Source: Norana najaformis (taxonomy: Eukaryota; Annelida; Clitellata; Crassiclitellata; Hormogastridae). Taken from it: a stretch of 64,000 nt of DNA. This document shows, one piece after another, positions 24,311-61,551 of the stretch (the stretch's first letter is position 1; every line of letters starts with the position of its first letter). The translations under genes were made by a program, and so were the position numbers. The stretch covers positions 10,223,983 to 10,287,982 of the forward strand of contig OZ029929.1 in assembly GCA_964023275.1 (NCBI GenBank), in the 5' to 3' direction. Below the pieces are notes generated by a model. The model saw only the letters and a list, made by a program, of their open reading frames with translations. It had not been told where the DNA came from and ran no database searches.

Positions 24311-27300
24311 TCAATACCTGGAACTACGAGAAGATAGCTTTCTAATAAATTCGTCCTTATCAAATTGTTTCCACAATGGATCATGATTCGCCCTAAGACT
24401 TCCTTTGACTTTGTTGTCTTTCTTTTGGAATACAGGTATGTCTACTGTAGCGTCATCTGGACATAAGTCCAGATAAATGTCATATGCCGCATCATAGGGC
24501 GCATGGTCTATGAATGGAATCTTGAAGTCTGAAGAAACATTCACCTCTTCCCCTTCGATGAATTGCAAAAATCTACGACTATCTTGCAGTTGTATCACTA
24601 TCTGTCTGAATGAGGGCATAAGGTAACAGGGATAAACGTCATGTCGACAAAACTCCGCGAAGCAAAACATGACCCTCTCGACCCAGAAGGCGAGTTCCTT
24701 TGGCGTAATTTTGTCTTCGTTTCGATCGTAAACTTTCTTTTTATTACGGGCATTGACAGCCTCCATGCAAAAGAGAAGACAAGTCTTCAACTGATAAGTG
24801 GTTCTCGGTTGATCACAAAGTATCATTTTGCAAACTATGTACGCTGCCTTTACTAAAGGCGAACTTTCTTTGATGATTCGACTTTCCACTGATGCAAATG
24901 AAATTCTAGCAAATGTTTCGGAAAATGGAAAGTAGTCAACACTCCTTGACATATTGAATTTGGGAAAGTAAAATTGAGCAACGCTTTGGCGGAAGTGATC
25001 ACGGAGATCCAATTGGCGTGGCTGATCAAAGACCAGTGTACAACCGCTTATTTTCACAGCAGGATTAATGCCAACTGGCAGCAAATCTCTTGGCCAACAA
25101 TCTTCCACGTTAACACAGGCAACGACGTCAACTGATATCTCGATAAACAGCAAGCCAGCCTCTCCATCGTCAATAGGATGAAGCATTCTTAGTCGCAATG
25201 TCTGACACTTACCAGCTGGATGGTCATATAGCTTTTCTTTTTCATCTGTTAGAAACCAATCGAACAGATCGTCGTCTTCCCAGAAATTTGGATCGTTTAA
25301 GACTTGTTCGAGAATATTCTGGAATCTAACATTAACTTCATGAGTCAGCAGACACTGATCTGAGTTGAAAAAGCAGTCAAAGGCCTCATCATTCCGACTC
25401 TTGGTATCGTCTTTTGACTTTCGTCTCAGTTGAAAGTAGCCTTCAAGACCCAACGGATGAGGAAATATTTCGCAAAGTTGGCTAAATTGAGTTAGTTTCA
25501 AGTTATAGTCGAAGTCTGTGGAAACGGCAACTTTTGTTTCTTCCTCGGCGCTTCCGACTAAAATCGGCTGACATTCAAATCGCCACTCCTTTTCCTTTAC
25601 ACTATGAGCCAAACGGTCCATGAAGTGTTGTAGTGGTGCTTTAAGCTGGCTTATGCGTCTGTTAAGGCGAATAAAGTCGTATTGAATCCATATCTTCCAA
25701 ATTGCTTTTTCTGACGATTCTGGAGAGCGAGATGATTGGGAGTAAATTTTAATCGTGGCAGCCAGTCTTTGCTTCGTTAATTCTGTCACATGATTAGTGT
25801 AGAGCGCCCTGGACGTGTAAAGGCTGCTCATTCTGACTGGCAATTTATTTGCGATGTCTTCCTTGATTGGCACCAAATCTCGTAGTTCCTTAAGTTTTCT
25901 AGGAGTATATCCGTATTTGTCTTCTGCGTGTTCATCACCTCCATTCTCGAGGAGCAACTTGTAATAATATTTTTCTTCTGCGTAATGTAAAGGGGTTTTG
26001 TCGTAAGTGTCGGTTGCATTTACACTAGAGCCTAGTTCTAGTAGCAACCTTACTAGAGGGTAATATTGCTTGTTCCGGTCACGTGGCATGACAGCATAGT
26101 GAAGAGCAGTTCTTCCTTTGTCATCTATTTCATTGGCTAAATGCCTGAAATTCTCTTTTTCAAAGTGAATTCCATCTACATTTAAGCCAAATCTTTCATG
26201 ATCCAGTTCTCTTTTGTCTGCCTTCATATCTTTAATGGCATAATTTGAAACACCAGAGATGATGAGTCGATGCGCGGGAGTTCGACGTCTCTCGTCAACT
26301 CTAACAATATGGACTGGCTCTTCATCTTTTGTTTCGCGTAGGTTTTGAATAGCGCCACGATTCTCAAGTTCGTTGAAAGTTGCCGAATTAATTTGCTTGG
26401 AAGACTTCAGTGCCAAATCAAGTGGCGTATTTCCTTTAAAGTCCACAGCATTTACATTTGTTTCGTCAATATCTAACAACAATTTAACTATTTCTTCTTT
26501 AGATCGAGGAGTTTTCTTTGGTGTTTCTTTTCCTATCTTTACAATTTGTTTGCATCGATTCGATTCCCTGGTAATCGTAATCCATTTGCGAGTCTCACGA
26601 TATTCTTTGACTTCCATCTCTGATTCATCAATTGATTCCGTTGTTTTCAGTGTCAGCGATATCCTGAAACGCCTGTTGCTAATCTCAAGACATTCTTCGA
26701 TGTCCAAGTTTCCCTCACGAAGCCGATTGCAGAAGAAATCAAAATTTAACCAGTTCCTATTTGGCTGATAGACTACTGCATGCAAGGCTGTAAATCCGTA
26801 ATAGTCTTGAAGATTAACGGAAGCTTTATTGTTCAGAAGCAGCTGCACTACTTCGACATGATGCCCTTCAGCCGCTTTAATCAAAGCAGTTGCTCCATAT
26901 TGATCTCTTGCGTCCAGATCGAGTTTCATTCCCGATTTGTGCTCCCAGTCTAAGAAGGTTTGAACGGCGTGAAAACAGCCCCTTTCGGAAGCAATGATCA
27001 AAGCTGTTTCGCCATCATCATTTTTCATGTTGAAGTCTGCGCCTTTCTCCAACAGCAACTTTATTATATCGTCTATAGTCTCAATCTGCAAAAGTCGCTT
27101 TTCAAACATTTCAAAAAGGTAATAGTAAGAACAATTTTCGCATATTTGTAGCACTTCATGAAGTGGAGTGTTTAATTTCTTGCCCTGATAGTTTACATTG
27201 AATCTCTCCGATGTCACAAGAACTTCTGCAATTCTTTTAATATTTTTGTATTTATTAGCGTCAATTTCATCAAAAGCATCAGGCTCTACCAATGCCTTTT

Positions 27301-28753
27301 TTAAGCAACGAAAGCTGTTTCCAACATGCTTCTCTGAATATACACTTTGGTCTCTATCAAGCAACATCTCAACCATTTTCGATTGGATGGAGCGCACTGC
27401 CAGTTCGAGTGCAGTGTATCCATCTGAGTCTCTCATTATTTCCAGAGGCGTTTTTGTTTCTTTCCAAAATATTTCAGCAAATACGCAACGACCATCGCGC
27501 TTCCTAAGTTCGAATGGCTCGATGTCCCTCTTTTCAACCAACTTACTGACATTCTCTTGCCGTCTGTACAAAACTTCTTTGAATTTTTCAAAAGTCCTGC
27601 GGCTGTGCTTCAAAATAACTTTAACAACCTCTGTATGACCCATTTCGACGGCAACATGTAATGGTGTCTTTTTATTATCGAACAATATAAAATCAGAAAC
27701 GCCGCGATTCAACAATTCATCTACGACTTCTGCATGACCATTCATTGATGCGAGGCAAAAAGGTGTCAACCAATCTTCTGTCATGTCGGTGGCATGGTTG
27801 TCCAGTAAAGTCACAACACTGGAAGTGTGACCATTTTGGGCGGCTAAATGAAGTGGAGTCATATTGTCGTTGCTGCACTCATTAACAGTTGCACCGTGAC
27901 AAATCAAGGCCTTTAAAATTTCTGTATGGCCCTTTTCAGACGCCAGATGAAGTGGAGTCATATTGAATTTGTTACATTCATTAACAGCCGCATGGTGGCT
28001 TATCAAGACTTCTACAATTTCTTTATGGCCGTTTTCAGACGCCAGATGAAGTGGAGTCATATTGAACATGTTAAATACATTTACAATCGCATCGTGACCT
28101 ACCAAGGTCTCTACAATATCTTTATGGCCGTTTATAGACGCCAGATGAAGTGGAGTCATATTGAATCTGTTAAATACATTTACAATCGCATCGTGACCTA
28201 CCAAGGTCTCTACAATTTCTGTATGGCCCTCTGCAGATGCCAGATGAAGTGGAGTCATATTCAATCTGTTACGCTTATTAACAGCCGCACCACAACGTAA
28301 CAAGGCCTTAGCAATTTCTGTATGGCCCTTTTCAGACGCCAGATGAAGTGGAGTCATATTGAATTTATTACATTCATTAACAGCCGCATGGTGGCTTATC
28401 AAGACTTCTACAATTTCTTTATGGCCGTTTTCAGACGCCAGATGAAGTGGAGTCATATTGAATCTGTTACATTCATTAACAGCCGCACGGTGTCGTATCA
28501 ATACCTCTACAATTTCTTTATGGCCGTTTTCAGACGCCAGATGAAGTGGAGTCATATTGAATCTGTTACATTCATTAACAGCCGCATGGTGTCGTATCAA
28601 TACCTCTACAATTTCTTTATGGCCGTTTTCAGACGCCAGATGAAGTGGAGTCATATTGACGTCGTTACATACATTAACAGCCGCCCTCCAATATATCAAG
28701 GTCTTTAAGCCTTGTTTATGACTGTTTTCAGACGCCGGATGAAGTGAAGTCAT
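24311..28753 (-). CDS. Ankyrin-repeat/cGAS-like (Mab-21) protein, type I paralogue C, intact
   Basis: 1480 codons from the first in-frame ATG at 28753, uninterrupted and apparently one exon. Residues 1-395 are about twelve tandem 33-residue ANK repeats (TPLHLASENGHKEIVEVLI type). More ANK repeats lie at roughly 470-500, 620-720, 790-815 and 865-935. The NTase domain spans about 1030-1400: a spine helix (HFMDRLAHSVKEKEW), then G1067-S1068-x11-D1080-F-D1082, then D1209 in EISVDVVACV, matching the three metal-binding acids of cGAS. The Mab-21 C-terminal lobe shows ARISFASVESRIIKE, YQLKTCLLFCME and CYLMPSFR. No cGAS zinc-thumb is evident. Unlike A and D there is no N-terminal acidic region; the ATG conserved in all three (28847 here) leads to a stop after 24 codons. 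Likely an active nucleotidyltransferase, possibly a cGAS-like receptor; ligand and product are unknown. Confidence 0.92.
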   Translation of the reverse strand: MTSLHPASENSHKQGLKTLIYWRAAVNVCNDVNMTPLHLASENGHKEIVEVLIRHHAAVNECNRFNMTPLHLASENGHKEIVEVLIRHRAAVNECNRFNMTPLHLASENGHKEIVEVLISHHAAVNECNKFNMTPLHLASEKGHTEIAKALLRCGAAVNKRNRLNMTPLHLASAEGHTEIVETLVGHDAIVNVFNRFNMTPLHLASINGHKDIVETLVGHDAIVNVFNMFNMTPLHLASENGHKEIVEVLISHHAAVNECNKFNMTPLHLASEKGHTEILKALICHGATVNECSNDNMTPLHLAAQNGHTSSVVTLLDNHATDMTEDWLTPFCLASMNGHAEVVDELLNRGVSDFILFDNKKTPLHVAVEMGHTEVVKVILKHSRRTFEKFKEVLYRRQENVSKLVEKRDIEPFELRKRDGRCVFAEIFWKETKTPLEIMRDSDGYTALELAVRSIQSKMVEMLLDRDQSVYSEKHVGNSFRCLKKALVEPDAFDEIDANKYKNIKRIAEVLVTSERFNVNYQGKKLNTPLHEVLQICENCSYYYLFEMFEKRLLQIETIDDIIKLLLEKGADFNMKNDDGETALIIASERGCFHAVQTFLDWEHKSGMKLDLDARDQYGATALIKAAEGHHVEVVQLLLNNKASVNLQDYYGFTALHAVVYQPNRNWLNFDFFCNRLREGNLDIEECLEISNRRFRISLTLKTTESIDESEMEVKEYRETRKWITITRESNRCKQIVKIGKETPKKTPRSKEEIVKLLLDIDETNVNAVDFKGNTPLDLALKSSKQINSATFNELENRGAIQNLRETKDEEPVHIVRVDERRRTPAHRLIISGVSNYAIKDMKADKRELDHERFGLNVDGIHFEKENFRHLANEIDDKGRTALHYAVMPRDRNKQYYPLVRLLLELGSSVNATDTYDKTPLHYAEEKYYYKLLLENGGDEHAEDKYGYTPRKLKELRDLVPIKEDIANKLPVRMSSLYTSRALYTNHVTELTKQRLAATIKIYSQSSRSPESSEKAIWKIWIQYDFIRLNRRISQLKAPLQHFMDRLAHSVKEKEWRFECQPILVGSAEEETKVAVSTDFDYNLKLTQFSQLCEIFPHPLGLEGYFQLRRKSKDDTKSRNDEAFDCFFNSDQCLLTHEVNVRFQNILEQVLNDPNFWEDDDLFDWFLTDEKEKLYDHPAGKCQTLRLRMLHPIDDGEAGLLFIEISVDVVACVNVEDCWPRDLLPVGINPAVKISGCTLVFDQPRQLDLRDHFRQSVAQFYFPKFNMSRSVDYFPFSETFARISFASVESRIIKESSPLVKAAYIVCKMILCDQPRTTYQLKTCLLFCMEAVNARNKKKVYDRNEDKITPKELAFWVERVMFCFAEFCRHDVYPCYLMPSFRQIVIQLQDSRRFLQFIEGEEVNVSSDFKIPFIDHAPYDAAYDIYLDLCPDDATVDIPVFQKKDNKVKGSLRANHDPLWKQFDKDEFIRKLSSRSSRY
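27830..28745 (-). repeat. 99-bp tandem repeats coding for ANK units in paralogue C
   Basis: Nine to ten near-identical 99-bp units, recognisable on the plus strand by gaagtggagtcatattg recurring every 99 bp. Each is one ANK repeat. Repeats 4 and 8 are identical in protein, 5 and 9 are similar, and 6 and 7 are near-identical, which indicates block duplication inside the array. Confidence 0.93.
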
Positions 28754-28769
28754 ATTGACGTTGTTACAC

Positions 28770-29330
28770 TCACTAGCAGCCGATATCAGCTGGGTTTTGG
28801 ATTTCTCCAGAATCAGCCGCAGCCTGTGTTGTTGATAATTTGCTCATTAATTGGTGATTCAATGTGCCATTCAGCAAATACAGCCAATGATCACAGCCAA
28901 GTGTTCTTGTTTTTTTATTTACTGCAAAAAAAGAGAACACGCGTTTATGATTTAACAGAGAAATGTATAAAAATTAGATACTAAGTGTCGTAATGACTGT
29001 CGAATTGAATAGGTACGCTGATGTAACAATGTTTTTATTGCTTTTTGGCTCTATCATTACTTAACCGACCGCAAGTTTGCCTTACGGATTGTTACTTCGA
29101 ACGCAGTGGTGAAGGCCAACGTATTAAGTACGGACCACTGTGCCACATACTCAATCTGTTTTGGTTTTCAACTTTCACAAATTTAAAGTTTCATTACTTC
29201 CAAACAGATTCTGTCACGAAATAGTCATTCAGATTCTTTGGAATAGCATCGACACCCCACAATGAAGAGGCTAATATCAAACGTATTGTAAGGTAACCGT
29301 TCATATATTAGTACAGCCTCTATTTACGTT
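28770..29330 (-). promoter_or_regulatory. Conserved type I upstream block (C copy)
   Basis: Aligns with the upstream flanks of A and D (shared tatgatttaacag, ccgcaagtttgc, gaccactgtgcc, gattctttggaat, taaccgttcat). It includes the conserved ATG at 28845-28847 that heads a 24-codon frame (28773-28847) overlapping no other gene, possibly a uORF or a decayed N-terminus. Confidence 0.4.
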
Positions 29331-29340
29331 TTTCTTCAGG

Positions 29341-31420
29341 GAAGGCTACAGATGATGAAATTGTTCGACACGCGTATCGGTCAACATGCCGCAACGCCAA
29401 CAAACTCATCAACAAATCACACCGACAATATTACAGTGACACCATATCGGAAAAGCCTAACGGATCTCGTTAACAGTGGTCAGCAGTAAAGGATGTACTG
29501 CACTCCACGACACCGTCTGAGGTGTTACCGACCGAAGAATGTCAGAAACGCTGTGCCTCGTTCTCAGACTTCTTCATAAATAAGATCAAGTCGATAAAAG
29601 TATCAATCGTCAAGCAACTGTCCGGACAACCCAGAGACCCTCTTGCATCAGATAGGGACCATGTCGGCACACATCTCGATGACCTCAGACCTGCGGATGT
29701 TGCGGAAATCTTCAAGCTACTTTCTTCCTTACCGGGAAAATCATCTCCGATGGATGCTTTCCTATTGTCTTTGCTAAAGTTATGTGCAGACGTGTTCACT
29801 CCAATCATCGTTCGTCTCTGCAACTTGTCTTTTAGCTGCGGGCAGTTTCCAGCCTGCTACAGATCCGCCTCTGTTATCCCTCTGCTGAAGAAGGAAAGGA
29901 ATCTCAACTTGCATTCTCTGTAACAAATATTGGAGCGTGTCTTTCTTGCTCACCTTTTGTCGCACATCAGTAGCTCCTATAATTTTAACACTCATCTGTC
30001 AGCTTACCGTGAGTATCAAGCGACTGAAACGGCTTTACTGAAGATCCTTGATGATGTCTACACTGCTTCAGGACGACATCAACCCACTCTGCTTATCGGC
30101 CTCAACCCCTTCGCTGTTTTTTATACGATCGACAAACCAACACTCATCGCCAGGCTGCAGAAGACATTCGGCATCAACGGTGTTGCGTTGGATTGGATTT
30201 GCAGCTACCTGTCGGACCGGTCACAACATGTCAGCATTGGATCGTCAAGGTGGAGTCGTCTACCTTCGAATACGGTATCCCACGAGGATCGGTCCTTGGC
30301 CCGATTCTTTTACACGTTGTATGTGGCTCCAGTCGCTGGCGTCATTTCCGAACACGGCATCAATTCCCACCAATATGCCGATGACATCCAACTGTACATA
30401 GCGCTCGATCACATTGACTCCGACACCAGCAATCTAACACGATATTCTGAAGCAGTACGCTGCTGGTCTAACTAATAGAGTGTGCCTAAATCCAAAGAAG
30501 CCTGAAGTCATCGCACTTGGCACTTCCTCATCAATAAAATCAATCGTGGATCTAAAAAGAGTCCACATTGCAGGTGCGAATATCTCACTATCAGGAACGT
30601 TTGAGAATCTCGGAGTAACATTGGACTCTAAAATAACATTCAACCAGCGTGTCGCCGTTATCTGCAAGGCTTCATCTTTCCACATAAAGGCCATGCGCCA
30701 TATTCGATCGTGCTTGCCCCCGGAACTTATGATGACAGTCGCTTGTAGTGTAGTCAGGGCAAAACTCGACTATTGTAATTCCCTTTTACGGCACTACGAA
30801 CTTCAACATTGCCAAACTGCAACGCGTCCAGAACTCATTAGCCCGACTAGTGACAGGAACCCGCAGGTTTGGTCACGTCACTCCTATACTCTCATAGCTA
30901 CTTTGGCGACCTGTCAGCACCAGAATCACTTACAAGATAGCGGGTACAGTCAGTGCTAAACTCTGCTGCCCGCCTCATCTATGGTCGGACACCATTCAAT
31001 CACATCATTGATCTGCTGCGCGACAACCTGCACTGGTTGCGCGTTCCTCAGCGGATCACCTACAAACTGTGCCTAATCACATACAACGCTCTTAACGGTC
31101 TTCTACCAGACTATATATCCGACTTCTGTATTCGAACAGCCGACAACCAGAACACATATCGGCTATGGTCCTCCTCGAGGAATCAACTGCATGTCCAGCG
31201 TCTTCCATGAAGTTCGGCGAACGTTCCTTCACTGTCGCCGGACCCATTGCGTGGAACAGTCTTCCTGACAATGTGACGAATGCCCCATCCCTGGACACAT
31301 TCAAGTCACGACTCAAGACACAACTCTTTAAGATATCCTATGACTGTAGTTGATTTTTGAACCCATGTACAGCGCCCTTTTCTTCGGCCTCGGCTGTGCT
31401 ACGGCGCTATATAAATTGTC

Positions 31421-31504
<84 letters not shown>
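29341..31504 (+). mobile_element. CR1/L2-like LINE, 5'-truncated and inactive
   Basis: Plus-strand remnants of one ORF2 run from AYRSTCRNANKLI to the 3' end. The frame is broken by a stop near 29470 and shifts near 29925, 30290, 30475 and 30950. RT motifs are recognisable: ASVIPLLKK, then a degraded first catalytic block (LNPFAVFYTID where LDLSAAFDTID is typical, so the catalytic Asp is lost), PRGSVLGPI, and an intact YADD at about 30373-30384. After RT come GVTLDSKI, FHIKAMRHIR and the typical LHWLRVPQRITYKLCLITYN tail. The element ends gcgctatataaattg followed by (ATT)n at 31421-31504. The endonuclease region is missing. Confidence 0.9.
31421..31504. repeat. (ATT)n microsatellite, LINE 3' tail
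   Basis: About 28 ATT units directly after the LINE 3' end, typical of CR1/L2-like termini. Confidence 0.97.
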
Positions 31505-31800: not shown

Positions 31801-31899
31801 CCTACGCCGACGATTTCTCGCCCAGCTGATGGACACATGGCGTGTTAACAAATGTCTTACTTACTAACTTGCTTGCTTATCCAGCACACCTCTGATATA

Positions 31900-33245: not shown

Positions 33246-33249
33246 AAAT

Positions 33250-35260: not shown

Positions 35261-35264
35261 CGCT

Positions 35265-46843: not shown

Positions 46844-49800
46844 TCATTGCCTGATACTGCGTGAAGATAGCTTTCTAATAAATTCTTCCCTATCAAATTG
46901 TTTCCACATTGGGTCATAATTGGCGTAAATGTAGGGGTAGTCGTAATTCCATTGGATTATAGGCATATCCAATGAGGCGTCATCTGGACATAGGGCCAGA
47001 TAAATGTCATAGACCGCAGAGTAGCAGAAGGGAATCTTAATGTCTGAAGAAAGGTTCACCTCATTCGCATCAATGAACTGCAAACATCCATAATTTTCAT
47101 TTATATGTTGCATTTCCAGTCTGAATGAGGGCATAAGGTAACAGGGATAAACGTCATGTCGAGAAAACTCAATGAAGCAAAACATGATCCTCTCGACCCA
47201 GAAGGCGAGTTCCGTTCGCGTAAATTTGTCTTCCTTTTGTGTTTTACTTCCACTTCTGGCATTGAGAGCCTCCATGCAAAAGAAAAGACAATTTTTCAAT
47301 TGATAAGAAGTTTTCGGTAGATCGGAAAGTATCATTTTGCAAACTATGTACGCTGCTTTTATTAAAGGCGAACTTTCTTTGATGATTCGACTTTCCACTG
47401 GTGCAAATGAAATTCTAGCAAATGTTTGGGAAGACAGACATCGAACAACCATTCGGTTGGAGCGACGAAAGCGTGGCCGATCAAAGACCAGTGTATAACC
47501 GTCTATTTTCACAGCAGGACAAATGCCAATTGGCAGGGAATCTCTTGGACAACAATCTTCCACGTTAACACAAGCAACGACGTCAATGGATATCTTAACA
47601 AAGAGAGAGCCACCCTCTCCGTCGTCAATGGGATGAAGCATTATTAGTTCCACTGTCTTACACAGACGAGTTGTTCGCTGATATTTCATTTCATCCATAT
47701 CTGCTACGATCCATTCGAACAGATCGTCAGCTTTAAAGAAATTAGGATCGTTTAAGACTTCTTCGAGAATAATCCTAAATATAGAATTGACTTCATGAGT
47801 CAGCAGACACTGATCGGAATTGAAGAAGCAGTCAAAGGCCTCGTCATTCCGATTCTTGGTATCGTCTTTTGACTTCCGTCTCAGTTGAAAGTAGCCCTCA
47901 GGACCCAATGGATGTGGAAACACTTCGCAAATTTGTCTAAATTTGGTCAGTTTAAAGTTATAGTCAAAGTCTGCTGAAACGATAATTTTGGTTTCTTCGT
48001 CGGCGCTTCCGACTAAAGTCGGCTGACACTCAAATCGCCAATCCTTTTCCTTTATACTATCAGCCAAACGGTCCATGAAGTGTTGTAGTGGTCTTTTAAG
48101 CTGGCTTACGCGTCTGTTAAGTCGAATAAATTTATTTTGGATCCATATATTCCAAATAGTTTCTTCTGACGAATCTTGACTGGAAGATGATTGGGAGCAA
48201 ATTGTAACTGTAGAAGCAACTTTCTCCTTCGTTAATTCTGTCACATGAATATTGCGAAGCTTGTCGGGCATGTTATAAGTTCTCATTCTGATTGGAAATT
48301 TCACAGCGTTGACTTCGTCGATTCTCATCTGGTCTCGTAGTTGCTTAAGATCTCTAGGAGTATATCCGTATCTATCTTTTTTACTTGCATTAGCTCCACA
48401 GCTGAGGATGAACATGTAATGATCATTCTCTTCTGCGTAATGTAAAGGGGTTTTGCCGTAAATGTCAGTTGCATTTACGCTACAGCCGAATTTTAGTAGC
48501 AGCTTTACTACCTTGTAATATTCACCAGTGATGGTGGAGCATTTCATAACATGGTGGTGAAGAGGAGTTCTTCCCTTATCATCTGTTACAGTAGCTAAAT
48601 TCCTAAAATTCTCTTTTCTTAAGTCGAATCTTTCACATTCCCGTTCTGTTTTACAAACAGGAGAGATGAGTCGATGCAAGGGACTTCGATCTCGTATGGT
48701 TTGAATAGCGCCACGATTCTGAAGTTCTTTGAAAGTTGCCGAATTCATTCGGTTAGACGGCTTCACTGCCAAATCAAGTGGCGTGTTTCCTTTGAGGTTC
48801 GTGGCATTCACATTTGCTTTGTCAATACCTAACAACAATTTAACTATTTTTTCTTTATAAACAGTAGTTTCATTTTCGTGTCCAATACCTTGTGATTTAT
48901 AGTCACCCTTCCAATCGCTAATCTGAAGATAATAGTTGATGCCATATTTTTGCTTTCGAAGCCCTTGGCAAAAGAAACTCAAATCAAGCCAGTTCCTACT
49001 TGGTTCAAATACAGCTGCATGCAAGGCAGTAAATCCATAATAGTCTTGCAGATTCACGGACGCTTTATTGTTCAGCAGCAGCTGCACTACATCGACATGA
49101 TGCCTTTCTGCCGCTTTAATCAAAGCAGTTGCTCCATAATGATCTCTTGCGTCCAGATCGAGTTTAACTCTTGATTTCTGCTCCCAGTCGAGCAAGATTT
49201 GAACGGCGTGACGACAGCCATTTTGGGAAGCAATGATCAAAGCCGTTTTGCCCTCATAATTTTTCATGTTGAAGGCTGCTCCTTTTTCTAACAGCAACTT
49301 TATTATAAAATCTATAGGTTGAATCTGCAAAAGTCCCTTTCTTGACTTCTTAATAAGGTAATTGTGAAACCATTTTGCGCATATTTTGAGCACTTGGAGA
49401 AGTGGAGTGTTTAGTAGCCTGCCCGGATAGTTTACATTGAATCTGTCAGACTTTATAAGAACTTCTGCGATTTTTTTAATTTTTTTGCATTTGATAGCGT
49501 CACAACAAGAACCTTTGAATGAGGATGTAAAGTAATGAAAGCTGTCTGTAAGATGCTCCTCTGAATATACACCTTGGTTTCTATCGAGCAATATCTCAAC
49601 CATTTCCGGTTGGACGGAAAGCGCTGCCATATCGAGTGCAGTCCATCCTTGTGATTCTCTCATTAACTCTAGAGGCGTGTTTTTTTCTGCCCAAACTATT
49701 CGAGCAGATAAGCATTGACCATTTCGCTTTCTAAATTCGTCTGTTTTGATGTTCCTGGTTTCAACCAAGCACCTGACATTTTCTTGAAGTTTGTACCCGT

Positions 49801-51253
49801 CTACTGTGAGTTTTAGAGAAGTCCTGCAGCTGTGCTTTAAAATAACTTTAACAACCCCTGTGTGACCCTTTTCGACGGCAACGTGTAATGGTGTCTTTCC
49901 ATCATCGAACGTTCTAAAATTCGAAATGCGCCGACGCAGTAACTCATCTACTACTTCTGCATGGCCATTCTTAGCTGCAAGGTAAAAAGGCGTTTCTTGA
50001 GATTGTTGGGTGACGTCGACGGTAGCATGGTTGTCCAATAAAATCACAACAATGGAAGTGTGACCACTTTGGGCGGCTAAATGAAGTGGAGTCATTTTGA
50101 CGTTGTTGCCCTCATTAACAACCGCACCGTGACATATCAAGGCCTCTACAATTTCTGTGTGGCCGTTTTTAGACGCCAGATGAAGTGGAGTCATATTGTC
50201 GCTGTCAACCTCATTAACAACCGCACCGTGACATATCAAGGCCTCTACAATTTCTTTATGGCCGTTTTTAGATGCCAGATGAACTGGAGTCTGGCCGAAT
50301 TCATTTATAGAGTCAACCCTTGAGTTATTACTTAGCAAAAGATCGACAACATCTTTATGACCGAGTGAAGCCGCACAGTGTAAAGGAGTGTTTTTCTTTC
50401 CGTCCGCTGCATTGACATCAGCTCCATTTGATTGCATCAGCAAACTCCTAACAGCCTCGAGATGACCATGTTTAGCTGCAAGGTGAAGCGTACTATGACC
50501 TCGTTCTTTTTCCTCATTGACATCCTGTACGTCCTCCTTCTCTTCGTCCTCCTCGTCCTCATCCTCCTGACCCTCGTCTTCCTCTTCGTCCTTCTCATCC
50601 TCCCCATCGTCCTTCTTCTTTTCCTCCTCTTCCTCCTCCTCCTCGTCATCATCCTCCGCAGAGTGTAAAGCAGTGTTTTCCTTTGCGTCATCTGCATTAA
50701 CATCAGATTCGGCTGATTGCATCAGCAAACTCCTAACAACCTCGACATGACCGCGTTCAGCTGCAAAGTGAAGTCGACTAGAATCTTGTTCTCCTTCCTC
50801 ACTAACATCCTGAACGTCCTCCTCCTCCTCAGCACTGGTCATTACGTCGTCCTGCTCGTCCTCCTCCTTGCCCTTGTCCTCTTCATCCTTGTCGTCGTCC
50901 TCCTCTTCGTCCTCGTCATCCTCCTCGTCCTCGTCCTCCTCCTCGTCTTTCTTCTCATTCTCCTCGAGATCCTCCTCTTGAGCATTGGTGATTATGTTGC
51001 GAATGTCATGCATTTCATTGGTTTCTTTACTATCAGTTGTCGTGCACGACGGTTCGCTAGCTTCGACTCCATTTGATTCAATATACATAGTTTCAGCATC
51101 AGATTCAGTGTACTTTGCATCAGATTTTCGGTGTATTTCAACAGTTGAGCTCGCTTTATTGCCAACAACGGCGTTTTGAGTTTCTCCAGAAGCACCCGCA
51201 GCGTGTGCTGTTAACAAATTGCTCATTATTGGGTAATTCAGTGTGTCATTCAT
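46844..51253 (-). CDS. Ankyrin-repeat/cGAS-like (Mab-21) protein, type I paralogue D, intact
   Basis: 1469 codons from the ATG at 51253. The ATG at 51226 (1460 aa) has a better context, and that codon is conserved in A and C, so it may be the true start. Order of parts: a short polar N-terminus, a Glu/Asp tract at about 95-155, an ANK piece (LHFAAERGHVEVV), a second acidic tract at about 195-245, then ANK repeats at about 250-470 with more at 620-970. The NTase domain has G1082-S1083-x11-D1095-F-D1097 and D1224 in KISIDVVACV. The Mab-21 C-terminal lobe has ARISFAPVESRIIKE, YQLKNCLFFCME and CYLMPSFR. No internal stop or intron is apparent. The three acids predict catalysis; a role as a nucleotide-second-messenger sensor is inferred from the cGAS/cGLR family. 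It lies head-to-head with E. Confidence 0.93.
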   Translation of the reverse strand: MNDTLNYPIMSNLLTAHAAGASGETQNAVVGNKASSTVEIHRKSDAKYTESDAETMYIESNGVEASEPSCTTTDSKETNEMHDIRNIITNAQEEDLEENEKKDEEEDEDEEDDEDEEEDDDKDEEDKGKEEDEQDDVMTSAEEEEDVQDVSEEGEQDSSRLHFAAERGHVEVVRSLLMQSAESDVNADDAKENTALHSAEDDDEEEEEEEEKKKDDGEDEKDEEEDEGQEDEDEEDEEKEDVQDVNEEKERGHSTLHLAAKHGHLEAVRSLLMQSNGADVNAADGKKNTPLHCAASLGHKDVVDLLLSNNSRVDSINEFGQTPVHLASKNGHKEIVEALICHGAVVNEVDSDNMTPLHLASKNGHTEIVEALICHGAVVNEGNNVKMTPLHLAAQSGHTSIVVILLDNHATVDVTQQSQETPFYLAAKNGHAEVVDELLRRRISNFRTFDDGKTPLHVAVEKGHTGVVKVILKHSCRTSLKLTVDGYKLQENVRCLVETRNIKTDEFRKRNGQCLSARIVWAEKNTPLELMRESQGWTALDMAALSVQPEMVEILLDRNQGVYSEEHLTDSFHYFTSSFKGSCCDAIKCKKIKKIAEVLIKSDRFNVNYPGRLLNTPLLQVLKICAKWFHNYLIKKSRKGLLQIQPIDFIIKLLLEKGAAFNMKNYEGKTALIIASQNGCRHAVQILLDWEQKSRVKLDLDARDHYGATALIKAAERHHVDVVQLLLNNKASVNLQDYYGFTALHAAVFEPSRNWLDLSFFCQGLRKQKYGINYYLQISDWKGDYKSQGIGHENETTVYKEKIVKLLLGIDKANVNATNLKGNTPLDLAVKPSNRMNSATFKELQNRGAIQTIRDRSPLHRLISPVCKTERECERFDLRKENFRNLATVTDDKGRTPLHHHVMKCSTITGEYYKVVKLLLKFGCSVNATDIYGKTPLHYAEENDHYMFILSCGANASKKDRYGYTPRDLKQLRDQMRIDEVNAVKFPIRMRTYNMPDKLRNIHVTELTKEKVASTVTICSQSSSSQDSSEETIWNIWIQNKFIRLNRRVSQLKRPLQHFMDRLADSIKEKDWRFECQPTLVGSADEETKIIVSADFDYNFKLTKFRQICEVFPHPLGPEGYFQLRRKSKDDTKNRNDEAFDCFFNSDQCLLTHEVNSIFRIILEEVLNDPNFFKADDLFEWIVADMDEMKYQRTTRLCKTVELIMLHPIDDGEGGSLFVKISIDVVACVNVEDCCPRDSLPIGICPAVKIDGYTLVFDRPRFRRSNRMVVRCLSSQTFARISFAPVESRIIKESSPLIKAAYIVCKMILSDLPKTSYQLKNCLFFCMEALNARSGSKTQKEDKFTRTELAFWVERIMFCFIEFSRHDVYPCYLMPSFRLEMQHINENYGCLQFIDANEVNLSSDIKIPFCYSAVYDIYLALCPDDASLDMPIIQWNYDYPYIYANYDPMWKQFDREEFIRKLSSRSIRQ

Positions 51254-51680
51254 CAAATACAAACAGTAATCACAACCAAGTATTCTGCTTCTTCATTTGC
51301 TGAAAAACAGTGCACAAGATTATGATTTAACAGAGAAATATTTTAAAGAATTATAAAATAAATGTGTTTGCGATTTGAATAGATACGCTGATGTTGCGAA
51401 CTTTTCATTGGTTTGCGTGGCTCTATTACTAATCGACCGAAAGTTCGCTTTACTGATTGTTATTTGGAAAATAGTGATGAAGGCCATCATATGGAAATCT
51501 GTGCCACACACAAAATCTGGTTTGGATTTCAACTTTCACTATTTCGATGTTTCATTACTTTAACACAGATTCATCTACGCAACAGTGATTTTATATTCTT
51601 TGAAATGGTATCGACATCCCACTGCAAAGAGGCTGAAATAAAATGTAAAGTAACCGTTCATTTTTTACAACCTCTATCAA
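51200..51680 (-). promoter_or_regulatory. Conserved type I upstream block (D copy)
   Basis: Aligns with the blocks upstream of A and C (tatgatttaacag, ggatttcaactttcac, taaccgttcat). It overlaps the first codons and probably covers the 5' UTR and core promoter of D. Confidence 0.4.
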
Positions 51681-51689
51681 TTTTAGTCT

Positions 51690-52020: not shown

Positions 52021-52024
52021 TGTT

Positions 52025-54100: not shown

Positions 54101-54109
54101 TATTATGTA

Positions 54110-54770
54110 TTCTCTCTTCCGTCTCTTTCTCTGCTAAAACATCGCAAGCCTCTTCCCAATCATTCTCTTTCACTGGCGGAGTTCCACAAGGCTTCGTTCT
54201 TGGACTTCTTCTGTTCATCCTCTACGTTACCTGTTGTATTTTTCCTTCTTTATTGAATGGGCTGTCACAGCATATCACTACCCCACTCAGTTAGCTCATT
54301 AAAGCATCCTGTCAAATCTATGTTGGTGACAGTCAACTATTCATCTTTGTCTCTCCAAACTGTTTCACCGACAATATAGATAGGGCCTAAGCTTCTTCAT
54401 GTAGTTAAACTAATCTCCTCCTGGATGACTTGTAGTCTCCTGTACGTGAACTCATCTAATAATGAACTCATACTTGTAGGCTTCCTCAGCTGTTTACAAT
54501 CCAATCACTCCGCTCAACCCACTCCTCTTAGGCTCTTAGCCATAGCTGCCTCACCCCTCTGGAAGAAACTCCTGACAATTTTGACCCATCAGACCAGCTG
54601 ACCAACATCTTTTCTTCCCTTGCAATATCTGCGCAGGTCTTTCACTCAAAAATGAAAACTCTCTTCTTTCACAATTCCTATCCTAATTCCATCTCTTCCC
54701 TAAAACATTTCTATTCCGCAAAGCCTATCCTGATACCTCGTCTTCCTCTTTTTTGTTTTGCAGATCCATT
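54110..54770 (+). pseudogene. Degenerate LINE reverse transcriptase fragment
   Basis: Reads TGGVPQGFVLGLLLFILYVT at about 54172-54234, a degraded catalytic box YVGDSQLFI (from YADDxQL) near 54317, and an ORF2 tail from 54461 that matches 15683-15950. Several stops and shifts; inactive. Confidence 0.75.
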
Positions 54771-54774
54771 TCAA

Positions 54775-54995
54775 TCATCGGTAAATGCCAAAGCCAAGAA
54801 GCCTCTATGCGTGAGTGTAACCGGTTCGCGTCTCGGTCGTGGCTTATTTAGGAGATTTAAATCCCGAGTGATACGGACCGTGCAAAGGGATCTTAAATGG
54901 CGTGGCGCCCTTTCGGGCAGCAGTGGTGAAGGATCTCACCCAATAAATTCATTGCAAAATGACCAGGGTCGAGGCCATACAGTCGCTATATAAAA
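54775..54995 (+). repeat. tRNA-derived SINE family, copy 4
   Basis: Near-identical to copy 1 at 15952-16170, as expected from the segmental duplication. Confidence 0.75.
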
Positions 54996-55021
54996 CCTAT
55001 ACATTTACATTTTACATTTAA

Positions 55022-56130
55022 CCGTCTGATTGCCTTCTTGCCTGACTCTTCTATATTGACTCGGAAACGATCCTTTCCTGCCTACAGAGTTTGTTTTGAC
55101 TGAGTGCCTGTGAATAAGCTGGTTCGCGTGACTTAGCTTTCATTGGGCGCTGTAGAAATCTCGACTAGCGATTCAACTCTGTATGCCCTAGTCTACTTCT
55201 CAAGCAGGCGTTAGTGGGCTGGCTAATCCGAGCTTAGTGAAAGAATAAAATGGCGCTGTCATGATTCGTCGCAATCGACGAAGTTTTCAACGTCAGAGTG
55301 TTTAGGGACCGCCAAAATCCAGTCGACTCGTTCCAGGACGATGAAATTTATTATGCTGTTCCTTTTCGCAGTCATCAGTTGCTTTTAATTTGTCAGTGAA
55401 CCATGCAACTTGAACCGTATAGCTTCCTCTTGTCCTATCACCCAACACGCGCCGCACGTACATGAACATGGTTTGCATAATGGTAATCGCGAGATTTCTA
55501 CAGCGCAAAACGAAAGATAAGTCGCGGGAACCAGCTTATTCACAGGCGCTCAGTCGAATCAAAATCGTTAGGGAAAATGTTTTGGTTCCAGGTCAAGATC
55601 CAGAAGTCAGATAAGAGACAGTCGGAAGGGGATGGTGCTTGAAATTAGAGCGAGAAGAGAGAAATGGGTAAGAGGAAGAATTTGGATAAGGTTTTGGAAA
55701 AGTAATGTTTTCAGTTTTGAGTGAAAGACCAGCGCAAAAACTGCAAGAGTTGAGAGTGTTGGTGAGTTCGTATGATTGGTCAGATAATTGTCGCAATTAT
55801 GGTGGGAATCTATTCCACAGGGGTTTCATAATACGACGATTGATTTCGTAGACGTGTGTCCATACCGAGTCTAAGTGGAACAGCCGACAGTTGCACGAGT
55901 TTCTTTGCCGTGAAAGACTGAATCCAAGCACAATAACAACTAGGAAGGCGTGGCAATGATGATTATGATAAAATAACAATGTGCTGCAGTGAAGGGGATT
56001 TCCAAGGCTGATATGACGGGATGGAAACATTCTTGGAAATTCCCTTCGTAGGCTCGTGCCGTTAATGACAACATTATAATAATTTCTTATTAAGATAATA
56101 TATATAAGCATAATAGGATGCATGAAATGC
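55022..56130. repeat. LINE 3' ends in both orientations
   Basis: 55022-55180 (+) ends gcgctgtagaaatctcg. 55485-56120 (-) is the longest minus-strand copy and reads from an ORF2 tail (KPLWNRFPP-stop-LRQLSDQSYE) into the 3' end. 55850-56130 also matches 16530-16790 and 38395-38640. About 300 bp around 55190-55480 is extra relative to the B-side duplicate. Confidence 0.65.
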
Positions 56131-56726
56131 TATGGTATTTAGCTTGAATGAGCGAAAATCAGATGTATACATATGAGTTATATAACTTCCGTTTGTGGCC
56201 GGATGTTACTAACGTTCGAAAAAATAATGAGTCTACTACCAACAACGTAGCCTAATAAGCTGAATTCTACTCTCAAGGCTTCTATTTTACATAGCCAAGT
56301 TTTTCTTCACAGGGGACGGTAGGTGGATCTGTTCTGTTTCGTATTCATTTAGGTCACTGTTACTGCATCTGACAAACCATGAAACTTTCAATCCAAATAT
56401 CCTGAAGCAAAGATGCAGTTGATAACATTGGTCGGTCACCCAATTTGACATTGTCTTGTTTCTTTGATAATTTTATTTTTAAAATATCTTTTCCAATGCT
56501 ATGAAAACAAAATGACTTTAAAAATTAATTAGCTCCAGTACTAAAGATGCGGGTTTAAGATTTTATTACGTATACTACGCTAAGTTCGATAGTTAAAAGA
56601 AAATTTTAGAGCAGAAACAATTAATTAAATTTAAAAACAGCACTTCCAAGTATTTGTATAATATTTTTGAATAATAATAAATAAATACCAATATTATTTG
56701 GCTGAAAAATACCTGCCCTTATTGTA

Positions 56727-56894
56727 TTAGACAGTGCGTTTTTTCCTTGCCTGGCGCTTGTACTCTAAATCTGGGGCATCTCTAACCACAGTCAAGGTGT
56801 AGTCTGCTAACATAGCAGAACTCCAGTTTCCTTGACACCTGCTTTCCATCGCCGATGTGTTCTGGTGGAAATGTTCGCCATGTTCATCCTTAAC
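56727..56894 (-). pseudogene. Fragment of the transposon-like family, antisense (E-side copy)
   Basis: 55 codons open on the minus strand (VKDEHGEHFHQNTSAMESRC, then QGNWSSAMLADY) to a TAA at 56727-56729. Same family as the gene at 13.66-15.37 kb, truncated at the 5' side. Confidence 0.7.
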
Positions 56895-57104
56895 CCTTCA
56901 TAAAATTTGTTGAATTTGTAATGATAATTTATATTGCCACACCTCATTTTGCTTTCTTACTTTGTGCGTATAGAACAGTAGCATGAATACAAGTAGTAAA
57001 CAAATGAATAAAATGCATGAATGTTTTTGATAACCATGATATCTGTACGCCTAATTATAATAACAAATTTGCATAGCGCTGCTCTTCAAGAAAACCTCCT
57101 CAGA

Positions 57105-57300
57105 AGTGCTCCTAAATTAACAAAACCACAGTCAAACAGAAAGGGTTTTAAACACTTACGGAAACGAGGCAAAGGAGTCCATGTCGGAGGTTGCTAGGCA
57201 ACCTAATATTACAAAAAGATGGACAAACCACAGCGGAGCTTATACGCGGCACTGAGGCATGGACAACCAGGTCATTTATCACAGCAGAGCGAAAGATTCT
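57105..57300 (+). promoter_or_regulatory. Strongly conserved upstream block with RFX X-box-like site (E copy)
   Basis: Partner of 17825-18010, with one substitution over about 175 bp. The X-box-like GGTTGCTAGGCAACC is at 57189-57203, about 320 bp upstream of the E start codon. Candidate promoter or enhancer of the intact type II gene. Confidence 0.5.
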
Positions 57301-57525
57301 GCGGCCAGGAATGGATGAGATTGAGATACATACAAATGTAGTTCCCTAAGATAAGCTGTAGCACTGCCTGCAAGCTAGCTTACATATGTCATTTACATAA
57401 GAATATCAGACAGTGTTATAATGCTTAATGTGTTTGTGTTTTTGAAGTTTTAGCGAACATAAAACGACGAGCGTTAGAGCTTGGTGCAGTTTCTTGGGTT
57501 AAAGCCCAGAATCGGAGCTCATTTG

Positions 57526-60500
57526 ATGGATTCAGATGCAAATATTCGAAATACCCCTCTGCTTGACACAGATGCCGATACTCTGAGTACCCCTCTGCAC
57601 AATACATATGCAGATGCAGATACAATTAGGCCTACCCCTCTGCACGTTGCAGCTCGAGATGGTTGCCTAGATGAAGTGACGACGCTGTTACAGAGCAACA
57701 TTGACTACGTTAATGCAAAGGACAGAGATGGCAGGACTCCACTACATCTCGCCGTTGAAAATCGTCGTACACGCATTGCTGAAATGTTGCTGATACACGG
57801 GGCGAAATTTCACGCCAAAGACAAACGTAAGACAACACCGTTTCACTTGGCAGCAAGAAAGGGGTTTACAGAAATTGTTCAGGTGATGTTACATTTCGCT
57901 GAAAATTACGAACATGGCGAAAGTAAAGATAATAATCACGACCTCGGCAGTTACCAGTCTACAGAACCTTCTAAGACCATTCGATCTCAACGCATTCTGA
58001 AACGATATGATCCTCATATGCTTCACGAGTCTGAAGTCCCAGTTATCGTATTGGAGAAAATACTTACGTCGCACGACATAGTTATGCAGCAAGCTTCAAG
58101 AGCGTTTGAACGTGCATTTCTGTGTGCAACGCCAGGAACGCAGGACTACCAGATGAGACCTGGAGATGTACAGTATGATGTACTTTCATACGATGAAGAT
58201 GATGATGATGGTGACATTCTATCGATTAGGGTGACCATACGCAAGAAAGATCAACCACATTCCAACATGCTAAACTGTGAATGTTTCAAAGCTCTTCTTG
58301 CTGCCATGAAATCAAGTCACATCGAAGTACTTAAGACACTGTTAGAAAGCGAGCTAATAAACGGACATCAGATTAACTGCAGAGGGCTCACAGCACTACA
58401 TCTTGCAGTGGCTCAATCTTTCAACATCACAGAAATACTCTTAAACTCTGGTAAATTCAATGTGAATGCCCTTTCTTCTGAATTTGAAACACCCCTGTTT
58501 TTTGCTATAAAACAGCGATTTAATCAAGATATTTCTGAAAAAGACCTTGCCGAATTTAGGAAAAAGGATCGAAATGTAGTGCTGTTACTTTTGAAACACA
58601 AAGCAGACATGAACGTGAGGAACTCAAAAGATGAAACTGCCTTGATAAAGGCAGCAGAGTGTGACTGCGATCATATCGTTCAGCTTCTTATAGACTGGTC
58701 GAAAGAAACTGGCATAGGCATAGATCTCAATGCCAGAGATTTTCTAGGTGAGACTGCATTAATAAAAGCAGCCAAAAAGCGAAACCCACAAACAGTGAAG
58801 ATACTTCTGGATGCTGGCGCTTCTGTCACTTTAGCAGATTATCGTGGATGCACAGCGTTGCATACCGTCTGCTATGAAGCACTTAATCCATGGGATTGCA
58901 TCGATATATGTTACATCTTGAGAGAACTCTGCGAAGGACACCTGAAAATAAATCTTCGAGAAGCTACACTAAGTGAAAAGCTCCATCAATCTTTAGATGA
59001 AATATTGAATCCAGACGTATCTCTCTATTTACGCTACATGTGGAAAGAATTTCACGATAAAACCCTTACAGTTAGCGATCTAGCCGCTTCGATAGAGAAA
59101 CTTCGTATCACGAATGTTCAAGAAATAAGTGCATACTGTTCTACAGAAACCGAAGAGGAATTAAATAAACACAGAACTGCAGAACTCATCCTTAAAAACG
59201 GAGATATTGACGTGAATGCTGCTGACTTCAGAGGTAATACGCCGCTTGACTTGGCCTTTAAGTCGGGAGTGAAAATAAAAACTTGTACGATAGAAACACT
59301 CAAACAGCGCGGGGCCACTTGTCGCACATTTCGATACGCACAGCAAAATGAAAACTTTAAAATGCGAGAATGTGTGATAGACAAGAAAGGAGGATCAACG
59401 TTCCATCGTTTAGCCATTGCTCACAGATATAGACCAATTGTGTCCACCAAACATAACGAATATTTAAAATTCTACACAATGCTTGACAGCATTCGCTGTT
59501 TCTCCCAACTGAGAAAAAATGTATGTCGTCAAATCCTCGAGATCAAAGACAACCACGGTAGAACCGCCTTGCATAAAGCTGTAATCCTAAGGTCTCGCTC
59601 CTTGAATTCGTTAGATGAAGACGAAGACACTCGTTCGCTGATCGGTATTGCGGCTGTATTACTAAGCATGGGCTGTGACGTCAACGCCACTGATAACTAC
59701 GGAAGAACGCCGCTACACTACTCTACGTATCAGTATACAAAACTCTTCATTGAAAATGGCGGAAACAAAGACATTAGAGATGCAGATGGAAGAAGTGCAA
59801 TTGAAATGGCAAAAATGAGAATGGAGGAAGACATGATTTGTAAAAAGGATGAGCGTGGAATCGCTCAGAACATTACAGAAAAAATTGTTCGGATATCGGA
59901 TCTTATTGAATTATTACATATTGATTCATCTTTGATAGAATCAATGAATTTTCGATACGGAATTTTTCCATTTGTTTCCGAGGAAAAATCAAATTACTCA
60001 AAAGAGATCGTTTGCACCATATGGAATGAAGCAAACTACGCCAATCGCAATCCAATCTCAGATCTTCTTCAAAAAGAAATCAACAACTTTGTCAAAAGAA
60101 TGGTTGATGGAATTAAGAAATATGATCCAAGGTTCGAATGTCGACCAATCTTTGTTGGAAGCGCCTTCGAAGGAACGAAAATTGATTTCCCAGATGAATT
60201 TGATTTTGATCTAGTTCTGACAAACTTTAGCCAACTGTGTGAAGTTTATCCGTCGCCAGTCCTACCTAGTGGTTTTGTTCATCTTAGAAAAAAGCAAACG
60301 GAAGAACATACTATAAACCAGAAATTTGATGATTTCTTCAACTTGGAAGGTATTCTCTTAACAAACAAAGTCAATGCCCAGTTCAAATTAGCTCTTGGCC
60401 AAGTACTTGAAGATCCGAGGTTTCTACAAGATGAAGGTCTTTTCGAAATACACTGGCGATGTGATAACGACTACGATGATCTCAGGTCAAGTAGCAATAA

Positions 60501-61551
60501 ACAGTGTAGCCTGTGTACGAATCTGAGAGTGACTCTAAATCGACCGCTTGATGGAATCTACTTGTTCAAAGAGATATCCATCGACATTGTTCCTTGCATT
60601 CACATAGATGGTTGGTGGCCAGAGGAAGCATTAGCGGACATTAGGGAGGACCTAAAAGTGGACGGTTGCAATTTGGTATTTGATCAACCACATCGCAAGT
60701 ATCCGTGGATTCCATTCACAGACCCGTGTGCTAGGATTTCTTTTGCGCCAATAGAAAGCCGAATTATCAGAAACAGTAAACAAATAGCAAAAGCAGCTTA
60801 CATGGTAGGAAAACAGTTGATCAAGAAGAATCCTGGACATACTTATATATTGAAAACATGCTTTTTATATTGCAACGAAGCATTGGATTCGCAACATGCA
60901 AAACGGACTGGACGACCACCTTTCAAAGGCATTCCGGTTGACTACCTAAATTTTTTACACTCAGATTTATACAGGCCTGTTGAAGAACTTCAGTTCTGGG
61001 TGGAAAAATTACTGAAATGTTATCTTGACTTTAACCTTCAAGATTTCTGTCCGTGTTACATGATGCCTTCTTTCATTTTACCGATTGATAAATATCTTAA
61101 ATCGAATCATATTAAGTTACTTTCCTGTGAAGATTGTAACGATTGTAACAATTGTAATAATGAAAGGTTCAGTTTTATAACACACTATGAGCCGATTTAC
61201 CACCTGTATCATAGCATTTCTTCGACTGACACCGACTTAAGTCTTGAGCCTCCGGAGCCCGAGCCTCTTCTAGAACGCTTTGACAGAGAAGAACTAATGG
61301 AAAAGCTATCTACTCCTCTTTCATATTCTAGACGGTACCACACAATGCGCCTGCTGTCTAAATTCCCTCTCTACTCTCAGAACGAAAATGACGAGCAAAC
61401 AGATGGCAACAGGAAAGAGGAAGAAGATTTGGATGAAGAGGAAGAAGAAGAGGAGGAGGAAGAGGACGAGGAAGAATTTGCGGCATCTTTCGAAGAAGAC
61501 GATGTTAGTGATAATTATGGAAGCAGTTGGTTTAAACTTCGTTACCTGTAG
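57526..61551 (+). CDS. Ankyrin-repeat/cGAS-like (Mab-21) protein, type II paralogue E, intact
   Basis: 1341 codons from the first ATG in the frame (57526, ttgATGg); it matches the start of B. ANK repeats lie at about 37-135 (TPLHVAARDG, TPLHLAVEN), 254-460 (including DETALIKAAE), 551-585 and 677-758. The NTase domain covers about 800-1190: G878-S879-x11-E891-F-D893 and D1020 in EISIDIVPCI give the three metal-binding acids. The C-terminal lobe has ARISFAPIESRII, YILKTCFLYCNEAL and CYMMPSFI. A Glu/Asp tail at about 1302-1326 replaces the N-terminal acidic tracts of type I. No stop, shift or obvious intron. Predicted catalytic cGAS-like enzyme with an ANK sensor or scaffold part; biological role inferred. 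It lies head-to-head with D. Confidence 0.93.
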   Translation: MDSDANIRNTPLLDTDADTLSTPLHNTYADADTIRPTPLHVAARDGCLDEVTTLLQSNIDYVNAKDRDGRTPLHLAVENRRTRIAEMLLIHGAKFHAKDKRKTTPFHLAARKGFTEIVQVMLHFAENYEHGESKDNNHDLGSYQSTEPSKTIRSQRILKRYDPHMLHESEVPVIVLEKILTSHDIVMQQASRAFERAFLCATPGTQDYQMRPGDVQYDVLSYDEDDDDGDILSIRVTIRKKDQPHSNMLNCECFKALLAAMKSSHIEVLKTLLESELINGHQINCRGLTALHLAVAQSFNITEILLNSGKFNVNALSSEFETPLFFAIKQRFNQDISEKDLAEFRKKDRNVVLLLLKHKADMNVRNSKDETALIKAAECDCDHIVQLLIDWSKETGIGIDLNARDFLGETALIKAAKKRNPQTVKILLDAGASVTLADYRGCTALHTVCYEALNPWDCIDICYILRELCEGHLKINLREATLSEKLHQSLDEILNPDVSLYLRYMWKEFHDKTLTVSDLAASIEKLRITNVQEISAYCSTETEEELNKHRTAELILKNGDIDVNAADFRGNTPLDLAFKSGVKIKTCTIETLKQRGATCRTFRYAQQNENFKMRECVIDKKGGSTFHRLAIAHRYRPIVSTKHNEYLKFYTMLDSIRCFSQLRKNVCRQILEIKDNHGRTALHKAVILRSRSLNSLDEDEDTRSLIGIAAVLLSMGCDVNATDNYGRTPLHYSTYQYTKLFIENGGNKDIRDADGRSAIEMAKMRMEEDMICKKDERGIAQNITEKIVRISDLIELLHIDSSLIESMNFRYGIFPFVSEEKSNYSKEIVCTIWNEANYANRNPISDLLQKEINNFVKRMVDGIKKYDPRFECRPIFVGSAFEGTKIDFPDEFDFDLVLTNFSQLCEVYPSPVLPSGFVHLRKKQTEEHTINQKFDDFFNLEGILLTNKVNAQFKLALGQVLEDPRFLQDEGLFEIHWRCDNDYDDLRSSSNKQCSLCTNLRVTLNRPLDGIYLFKEISIDIVPCIHIDGWWPEEALADIREDLKVDGCNLVFDQPHRKYPWIPFTDPCARISFAPIESRIIRNSKQIAKAAYMVGKQLIKKNPGHTYILKTCFLYCNEALDSQHAKRTGRPPFKGIPVDYLNFLHSDLYRPVEELQFWVEKLLKCYLDFNLQDFCPCYMMPSFILPIDKYLKSNHIKLLSCEDCNDCNNCNNERFSFITHYEPIYHLYHSISSTDTDLSLEPPEPEPLLERFDREELMEKLSTPLSYSRRYHTMRLLSKFPLYSQNENDEQTDGNRKEEEDLDEEEEEEEEEEDEEEFAASFEEDDVSDNYGSSWFKLRYL

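Follow-up and report, generated by a model that had tools for sequence, protein, structure and literature searches.

A cluster of putative ankyrin-fused cGAS-like receptors in the genome of the annelid Norana najaformis

Can a cGAS-like enzyme be placed under the control of a long ankyrin array, and what would such a protein sense? The question is raised by a 64,000-nucleotide stretch of Norana najaformis DNA (contig OZ029929.1 of assembly GCA_964023275.1, forward-strand positions 10,223,983 to 10,287,982; the whole stretch is called the window), in which long open reading frames (ORFs) join ankyrin repeats to a Mab-21/cGAS-like nucleotidyltransferase (NTase). From sequence comparison and predicted models, the locus appears to be a group of ankyrin-fused cGAS-like receptors (cGLRs) that has evolved locally by birth and death in an animal genome, and its members are probably active second-messenger synthases gated by a protein ligand. 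A tblastn search of the window with the NTase domain of gene C as query located five NTase loci, A to E, with A matched at 2-720 (-) in two pieces and B at 20644-21696 (+) in three. The genes lie in both orientations:

24311..28753 (-): gene C, ankyrin array and cGAS-like NTase; 1480-aa ORF with an internal ATG start
24314..25741 (-): NTase domain of C; D1080, D1082 and D1209, codons at about 25516-25514, 25510-25508 and 25129-25127
27848..28782 (-): distal array of C; a 99-nt unit repeated 9.4 times, each unit interpreted as a 33-aa ankyrin repeat
46844..51262 (-): gene D, acidic N-terminus, ankyrin repeats and NTase; probable start ATG 51226 or 51253
46847..48196 (-): NTase domain of D; acids D1098, D1100 and D1227
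57526..61551 (+): gene E, ankyrin repeats and NTase; 1341 aa counted from the ATG
59986..61320 (+): NTase domain of E; E906, D908 and D1035, codon starts at about 60196, 60202 and 60583
2..7075 (-): gene A, broken; acidic/ankyrin array and an NTase frame truncated at the edge of the window
18228..21999 (+): gene B, a paralogue of E and likewise broken; the frame is interrupted several times, starting at about 20267

In C, D and E, ankyrin repeats share a chain with a cGLR domain, the architecture of ankyrin-fused cGLRs. The best ankyrin Pfam model matched at E-values of 5.7e-118, 2.1e-94 and 2e-51, respectively, and the Mab-21 model PF03281 at 1.7e-7, 2.6e-5 and 2.1e-11, which bears out the fusion claimed in the first-pass annotation of this DNA. 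The same scan of A gave a partial match below the cut-off. That annotation had also counted three intact proteins of 1341-1480 aa and two broken ones, within 24311..61551. The ORFs were recovered, with the reservation that "intact" needs care for C; the span is too narrow, since the broken A and B fall outside it.

Catalytic site and predicted fold

C, D and E all contain GS-x11-[D/E]-F-D and I-S-[I/V]-D: the motifs are GSAEEETKVAVSTDFD and ISVDVV in C, GSADEETKIIVSADFD and ISIDVV in D, and GSAFEGTKIDFPDEFD and ISIDIV in E. The cGAS-type spacing of the first two metal ligands and the position of the third Asp, both read earlier from the DNA alone, are therefore present in all three proteins. 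In alignments of a family profile (A4, seven sequences), the GS loop, the three acids, S-F-x3-E and Y-x2-K line up with 8gjy, 7lt2 and cGAS. Y-x2-K is invariant in all seven A4 sequences, and [R]-x-S-F-x3-E is present in 18 family proteins, 16 of which have the R; we take R-x-S-F-x3-E and Y-x2-K to be nucleotide contacts in cGAS. In the predicted model of E, E906 and D908 share a strand (model residues 71-78), and D1035 is on a second strand (197-206). Given the alignment to cGAS-fold structures, the three acids would meet in one site.

In the cGLR pattern printed by Li et al. 2023, a GS motif is followed 8-20 residues later by [DE]h[DE] and, further on, by a third acid; C, D and E all show this pattern. 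Its literal wording, h[QT]GS, does not fit, as the residue before GS is V in each, and the gap to the third acid is 126 in all three, outside the printed range of 50-90. Solved members depart from it too: 8gjy has KGS and 7lt2 GGS, and the gaps (hand counts of ~93 in mouse cGAS, ~104 in 8gjy and ~120 in 7lt2) all fall outside 50-90; the printed range was therefore not taken as defining a cGLR. The Methods passage of PMC9980059 gives a looser G[S/G] but retains X50-90.

Structure predictions cover E and C. The AlphaFold2 model of E (445 aa, 13 sequences) had a mean predicted local distance difference test score (pLDDT) of 80.5 and a predicted template modeling score of 0.84; the model of C (476 aa, 17 sequences) had a pLDDT of 72.9, with 97 residues below 50. 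Both resemble known cGLR/CD-NTase structures, and the comparison with cGAS that the first-pass annotation proposed returned a cGAS-like fold in each case. The top PDB match of the E model was Cv-cGLR1, with a Z score tied with that of human cGAS, and for C, Cv-cGLR1 came ahead of human cGAS (27.5 versus 25.6). Alignments to Cv-cGLR1 (346 residues long) span 324-325 residues and so extend across the NTase core into the helix bundle at the C-terminus; homology over the same two parts is seen in the A4 profile, positions 25-347 of which align to 8gjy. MAB21L1 (5eom) was also among the structural matches. In profile searches of the PDB, A4 matched the cGLR1 chain 8gjy at 1.8e-20 and MAB21L1 at 7.9e-7, scores raised by the two stand-alone relatives that A4 includes, and a profile of C, D and E retrieved three chains, including cGAS (3.6e-5) and 8gjy (4.2e-5). 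The E domain alone retrieved 8gjy (3.4e-7), 7lt2 (4.8e-5) and 8gjw (3.1e-4) and, more weakly, one cGAS chain (0.041) and one chance-level match. Another profile (A2) was uninformative for the NTase because it returned ankyrin-type chains in the best 60 of 626 matches. The C-terminal domain is a putatively catalytically competent cGAS-fold NTase, most likely making a nucleotide second messenger.

Relatives and the class of ligand

Searches of public protein sets retrieved nine ankyrin proteins with the E domain (PF03281 precomputed in eight of the nine), one with the C domain (P0017, without PF03281), and nine proteins with the C/D/E profile, one of them already found otherwise. P0017 has a 1349-aa frame and is 54% identical to C over the domain. 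These relatives were collected by similarity to the NTase domain, so the sample is not unbiased. In a 12-sequence alignment (A1), G81, S82, D96 (the second acid) and D223 (the third) show no variation, and the position of the first acid holds either E or D. The GS segment is present in 20 of 23 family proteins; in these, the first acid is D/E in 19 and the second is Asp in all 20. The third Asp was found in 19 family proteins, with truncated A not among them. P0024 and P0025 are stand-alone proteins that both bear PF20266, and P0018 starts with an ankyrin remnant; in P0024, K replaces the first catalytic acid, and its close relative P0025 retains E.

In many relatives, a stretch preceding the NTase matches the ankyrin core of E (residues 331-470), with 36-48% of residues identical. 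This is a suggestion of one ancestral ankyrin-NTase fusion; generic ankyrin similarity could also explain the match, because other repeats in P0012 match the E core at ~38%. A viral or prokaryotic origin was considered and set aside: 202 pattern matches in viral_contigs and 231 in genome_contigs yielded no relative confirmed by the C/D/E profile, although the scans rest on two short patterns each and are weak evidence of absence.

The NTase domains are acidic, with isoelectric points (pI; Biopython, domain only, not the program of Li et al.) of 5.38 in C, 5.51 in D and 5.54 in E. For 18 family segments, some truncated, the pI is ≤6.3 in 15, ~7.2 in two and 8.26 in one partial segment, and none exceeds 8.5; this set omits the stand-alone P0024 (6.35) and P0025 (6.73). 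In the passages of Li et al. 2023 (PMC9980059) considered here, nucleic-acid-sensing cGLRs have a pI >8.5, and non-nucleic-acid ligands are proposed for acidic active cGLRs, a possibility left open there. The C, D and E domains lie well below that value, and their acidity points away from DNA or RNA sensing. The most likely ligand of the ankyrin arm is a protein, whether from a pathogen, damage-associated or a host partner, and the arm would gate or place the enzyme.

Divergence of the copies, gene starts and neighboring sequence

The copies form two subfamilies. In A/C/D, the C and D NTases are 70% identical, with synonymous divergence (dS) of 0.29, and A and C are 77% identical over 182 codons; B and E share 70% identity over 633 aligned ankyrin codons (dS 0.27). 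Between subfamilies, NTase identity falls to 37-38% and dS is saturated.

Constraint is uneven along the proteins. The ratio of nonsynonymous to synonymous divergence (omega) is ~0.7-0.9 over much of the length. In C-D comparisons, the 60-codon windows around the first two metal ligands (C1074-1133 and C1104-1163) gave omega values of 0.18 and 0.22. Values were obtained for 27 ankyrin-part windows (four more gave none), of which 21 range from 0.5 to 1.4 and the remaining six are 0.20, 0.35, 0.47, 0.49, 1.52 and 2.22. In block C1060-1155, chosen after the window values were known, 17 of 96 codons are replaced, versus 116 of 353 in the rest of the domain. The B-E piece containing GS-ExD is 96% identical (dS 0.25) with an omega of 0.06 (confidence interval [CI] 0-0.27), though B is now broken; three other B-E NTase pieces gave 0.59-0.86. 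Omega is below 1 for the C-D NTase (CI 0.47-0.93) and the B-E ankyrin part (CI 0.53-0.86), and is not clearly so for the C-D ankyrin core (CI 0.65-1.07). We read these values as selection that holds the enzyme and an ankyrin core and leaves the rest free to change, perhaps under relaxed constraint.

The array of A contains 11.9 copies of a ~297-nt acidic/ankyrin unit (95% matches), in which the reading frame is shifted at intervals of about 590 nt; this recurring frameshift corresponds to two units, which is why the array seems to have expanded after the frameshift. The near-identical part spans 3213-6720, where an assembly artifact is possible. The NTase frame of A is broken near 136-205 before the window edge cuts it. 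D contains two 285-nt repeat units, and acidic N-terminal stretches are present in A and D. The E ORF spans 57481-61551 (+), with the ATG at residue 16 giving 1341 aa. The D ORF has 1472 aa from a TTG, and ATGs at residues 4 and 13 give 1469 or 1460 aa. C, D and A can be aligned upstream of the ORF, and the D-type N-terminus meets a stop in C and A; the long ORF of C therefore starts at ATG 28753. The beginning of P0017 looks, by eye, very similar to that of D, which therefore probably retains the ancestral start. C, D and A also have in common, again by eye, a pyrimidine-AG tract resembling a splice acceptor ahead of the ORF, so each of these ORFs may form the large terminal exon of a gene that has another exon upstream. 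The idea of a truly intronless cluster was dropped on the same grounds.

Elsewhere in the window, 10756-12645 (+) holds an open 629-aa hAT-type transposase (zf-C2H2_12 and Dimer_Tnp_hAT by Pfam), possibly a recent mobile element. Upstream of gene C, frames at 29474-31504 (+) resemble, by eye, pieces of a LINE-type reverse transcriptase and are followed by a perfect (TTA)28 tract. Two adjoining ORFs of 182 and 385 aa at 13664-15366 (+) may be mobile-element genes; the 385-aa ORF had no Pfam match above the cut-off.

Alternative readings and known systems

Several results weigh against gated, active receptors. The PF03281 score of D is marginal (24.8 bits against a cut-off of 24.1), P0017, the closest relative of C, has no PF03281 match up to E 10, the C-terminal Mab-21 domain PF20266 was undetected by Pfam in C, D and E, and a single-sequence phmmer search with the C domain returned no PDB chain up to E 1. 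The ankyrin-core window C611-670 [26744-26923 (-)] has an omega of 0.20, as constrained as the catalytic block, which is also not unique in nonsynonymous divergence (0.08, versus 0.07 in C611-670); 31 of 449 circular blocks show as few replacements. Omega is not low over the third acid (windows of 0.97 and 0.58), some C-D NTase windows exceed 1 (1.24 and 2.83), and high omega together with two broken copies is also compatible with relaxed selection. Across the nine repeats of C, the more variable positions (which include 2, 3, 13, 14 and 33, and also 18, 22, 24, 25, 27, 29 and 32) are not limited to the usual binding positions of ankyrin repeats, and overall nonsynonymous diversity (pN 0.19) is below synonymous diversity (pS 0.32). 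Given this scatter and pN < pS, diversifying selection on a binding face has left no direct trace here, and positive selection there was rejected as unsupported. Window C611-670 lies mostly inside C548-663, the stretch matched by the ankyrin core of E.

Direct sensing of nucleic acid by the NTase, as in cGAS and fly cGLR1, with an ankyrin arm that only localizes or oligomerizes the protein, is unlikely. It would agree with a predicted fold shared with cGAS and Cv-cGLR1 and with a spine helix before GS that is slightly more basic than acidic (9-10 K/R, 7-8 D/E), but the low pI of the domains argues against it. The zinc thumb of cGAS has the pattern H-x5-CC-x6-C, which is absent from C, D and E and from 23 of 23 proteins, some of them truncated before the region. 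It is slightly less likely still that the fold is a pseudoenzyme, comparable to developmental Mab21 proteins and serving the ankyrin scaffold as a structural or adaptor module. Passages of PMC9980059 do describe Mab21L1-related members with a non-immune developmental role, and 5eom appears among the structural matches; set against this are the triad retained in most relatives, the strong constraint around the first two ligands, the A4 preference for 8gjy over MAB21L1 (helped by its stand-alone members) and the conserved [R]-x-S-F-x3-E and Y-x2-K. Decay of the cluster, leaving three long ORFs non-functional or nearly so, would account for two broken copies of five, the D-type start lost in C and the generally high omega. 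This is highly improbable, given the ~4-kb open frames of D and E, the two CIs below 1 and the long frame of P0017, which comes from elsewhere.

The gated-synthase reading can be carried further, tentatively, to a fast-evolving cGLR clade in which the enzyme is under the control of the ankyrin arm instead of nucleic acid, and in which the distal array is rewritten by repeat duplication (the 99-nt units of C, the ~297-nt acidic units of A and the two 285-nt units of D) while the catalytic and ankyrin-core blocks are held. Such a protein-sensing clade, if real, would be the cyclic-nucleotide equivalent of variable immune receptors built from repeats.

The cGAS-like fold, site and fusion of the first-pass interpretation are supported, but its "unusual receptor design" was overstated, because ankyrin-fused cGLRs are already one of the architecture classes in passages of Li et al. 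2023 (PMC9980059), where the coral Stylophora pistillata provides an example; single enzymatic proteins make up 87% of cGLRs there, and some cGLRs bear ankyrin or tetratricopeptide repeat (TPR) modules. In those ankyrin-fused cGLRs, too, a single animal protein contains the NTase and the repeats. Compared by description only, the present ones differ in reaching 1480 aa with repeat-rich distal arrays, in the acidic N-terminal stretches of A and D, and in forming a two-orientation cluster with two broken copies. Cv-cGLR1 (8gjw, Crassostrea virginica) shares the fold over almost the whole domain and the chain 8gjy the aligned triad, but identity in structural alignments is 15-20%, and the C, D and E domains are acidic and carry an ankyrin arm. 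Human and mouse cGAS share the fold, GS-x11-ExD spacing, R-x-S-F-x3-E and Y-x2-K, and differ in having the zinc-thumb pattern, in charge and in the third-acid gap (~93 in mouse cGAS by hand count, 126 here). As far as the passages of PMC8195603 (eLife 2021) go, mollusc Mab-21 fusions are also large multi-domain immune-type proteins, but with HEPN, immunoglobulin, DED-TRADD-N and TPR modules and no ankyrin arm; direct recognition by ankyrins is suggested there for TRADD-N proteins. The ankyrin mention in the relevant part of PMC13144350 concerns Relish only. No functional study of an ankyrin-fused cGLR was found in the passages considered from four open-licence papers (PMC9980059, PMC13319465, PMC8195603 and PMC13144350).

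The kind of architecture is therefore already known, and the cluster is a new, divergent and clustered member of it, adding the cluster itself, its broken copies, repeat-unit arrays and uneven constraint. It shows which parts change fast and which stay fixed. If active, acidic ankyrin-fused members would be good candidates for cGLRs that answer to non-nucleic-acid ligands, and D and E would be natural test proteins for such activation.
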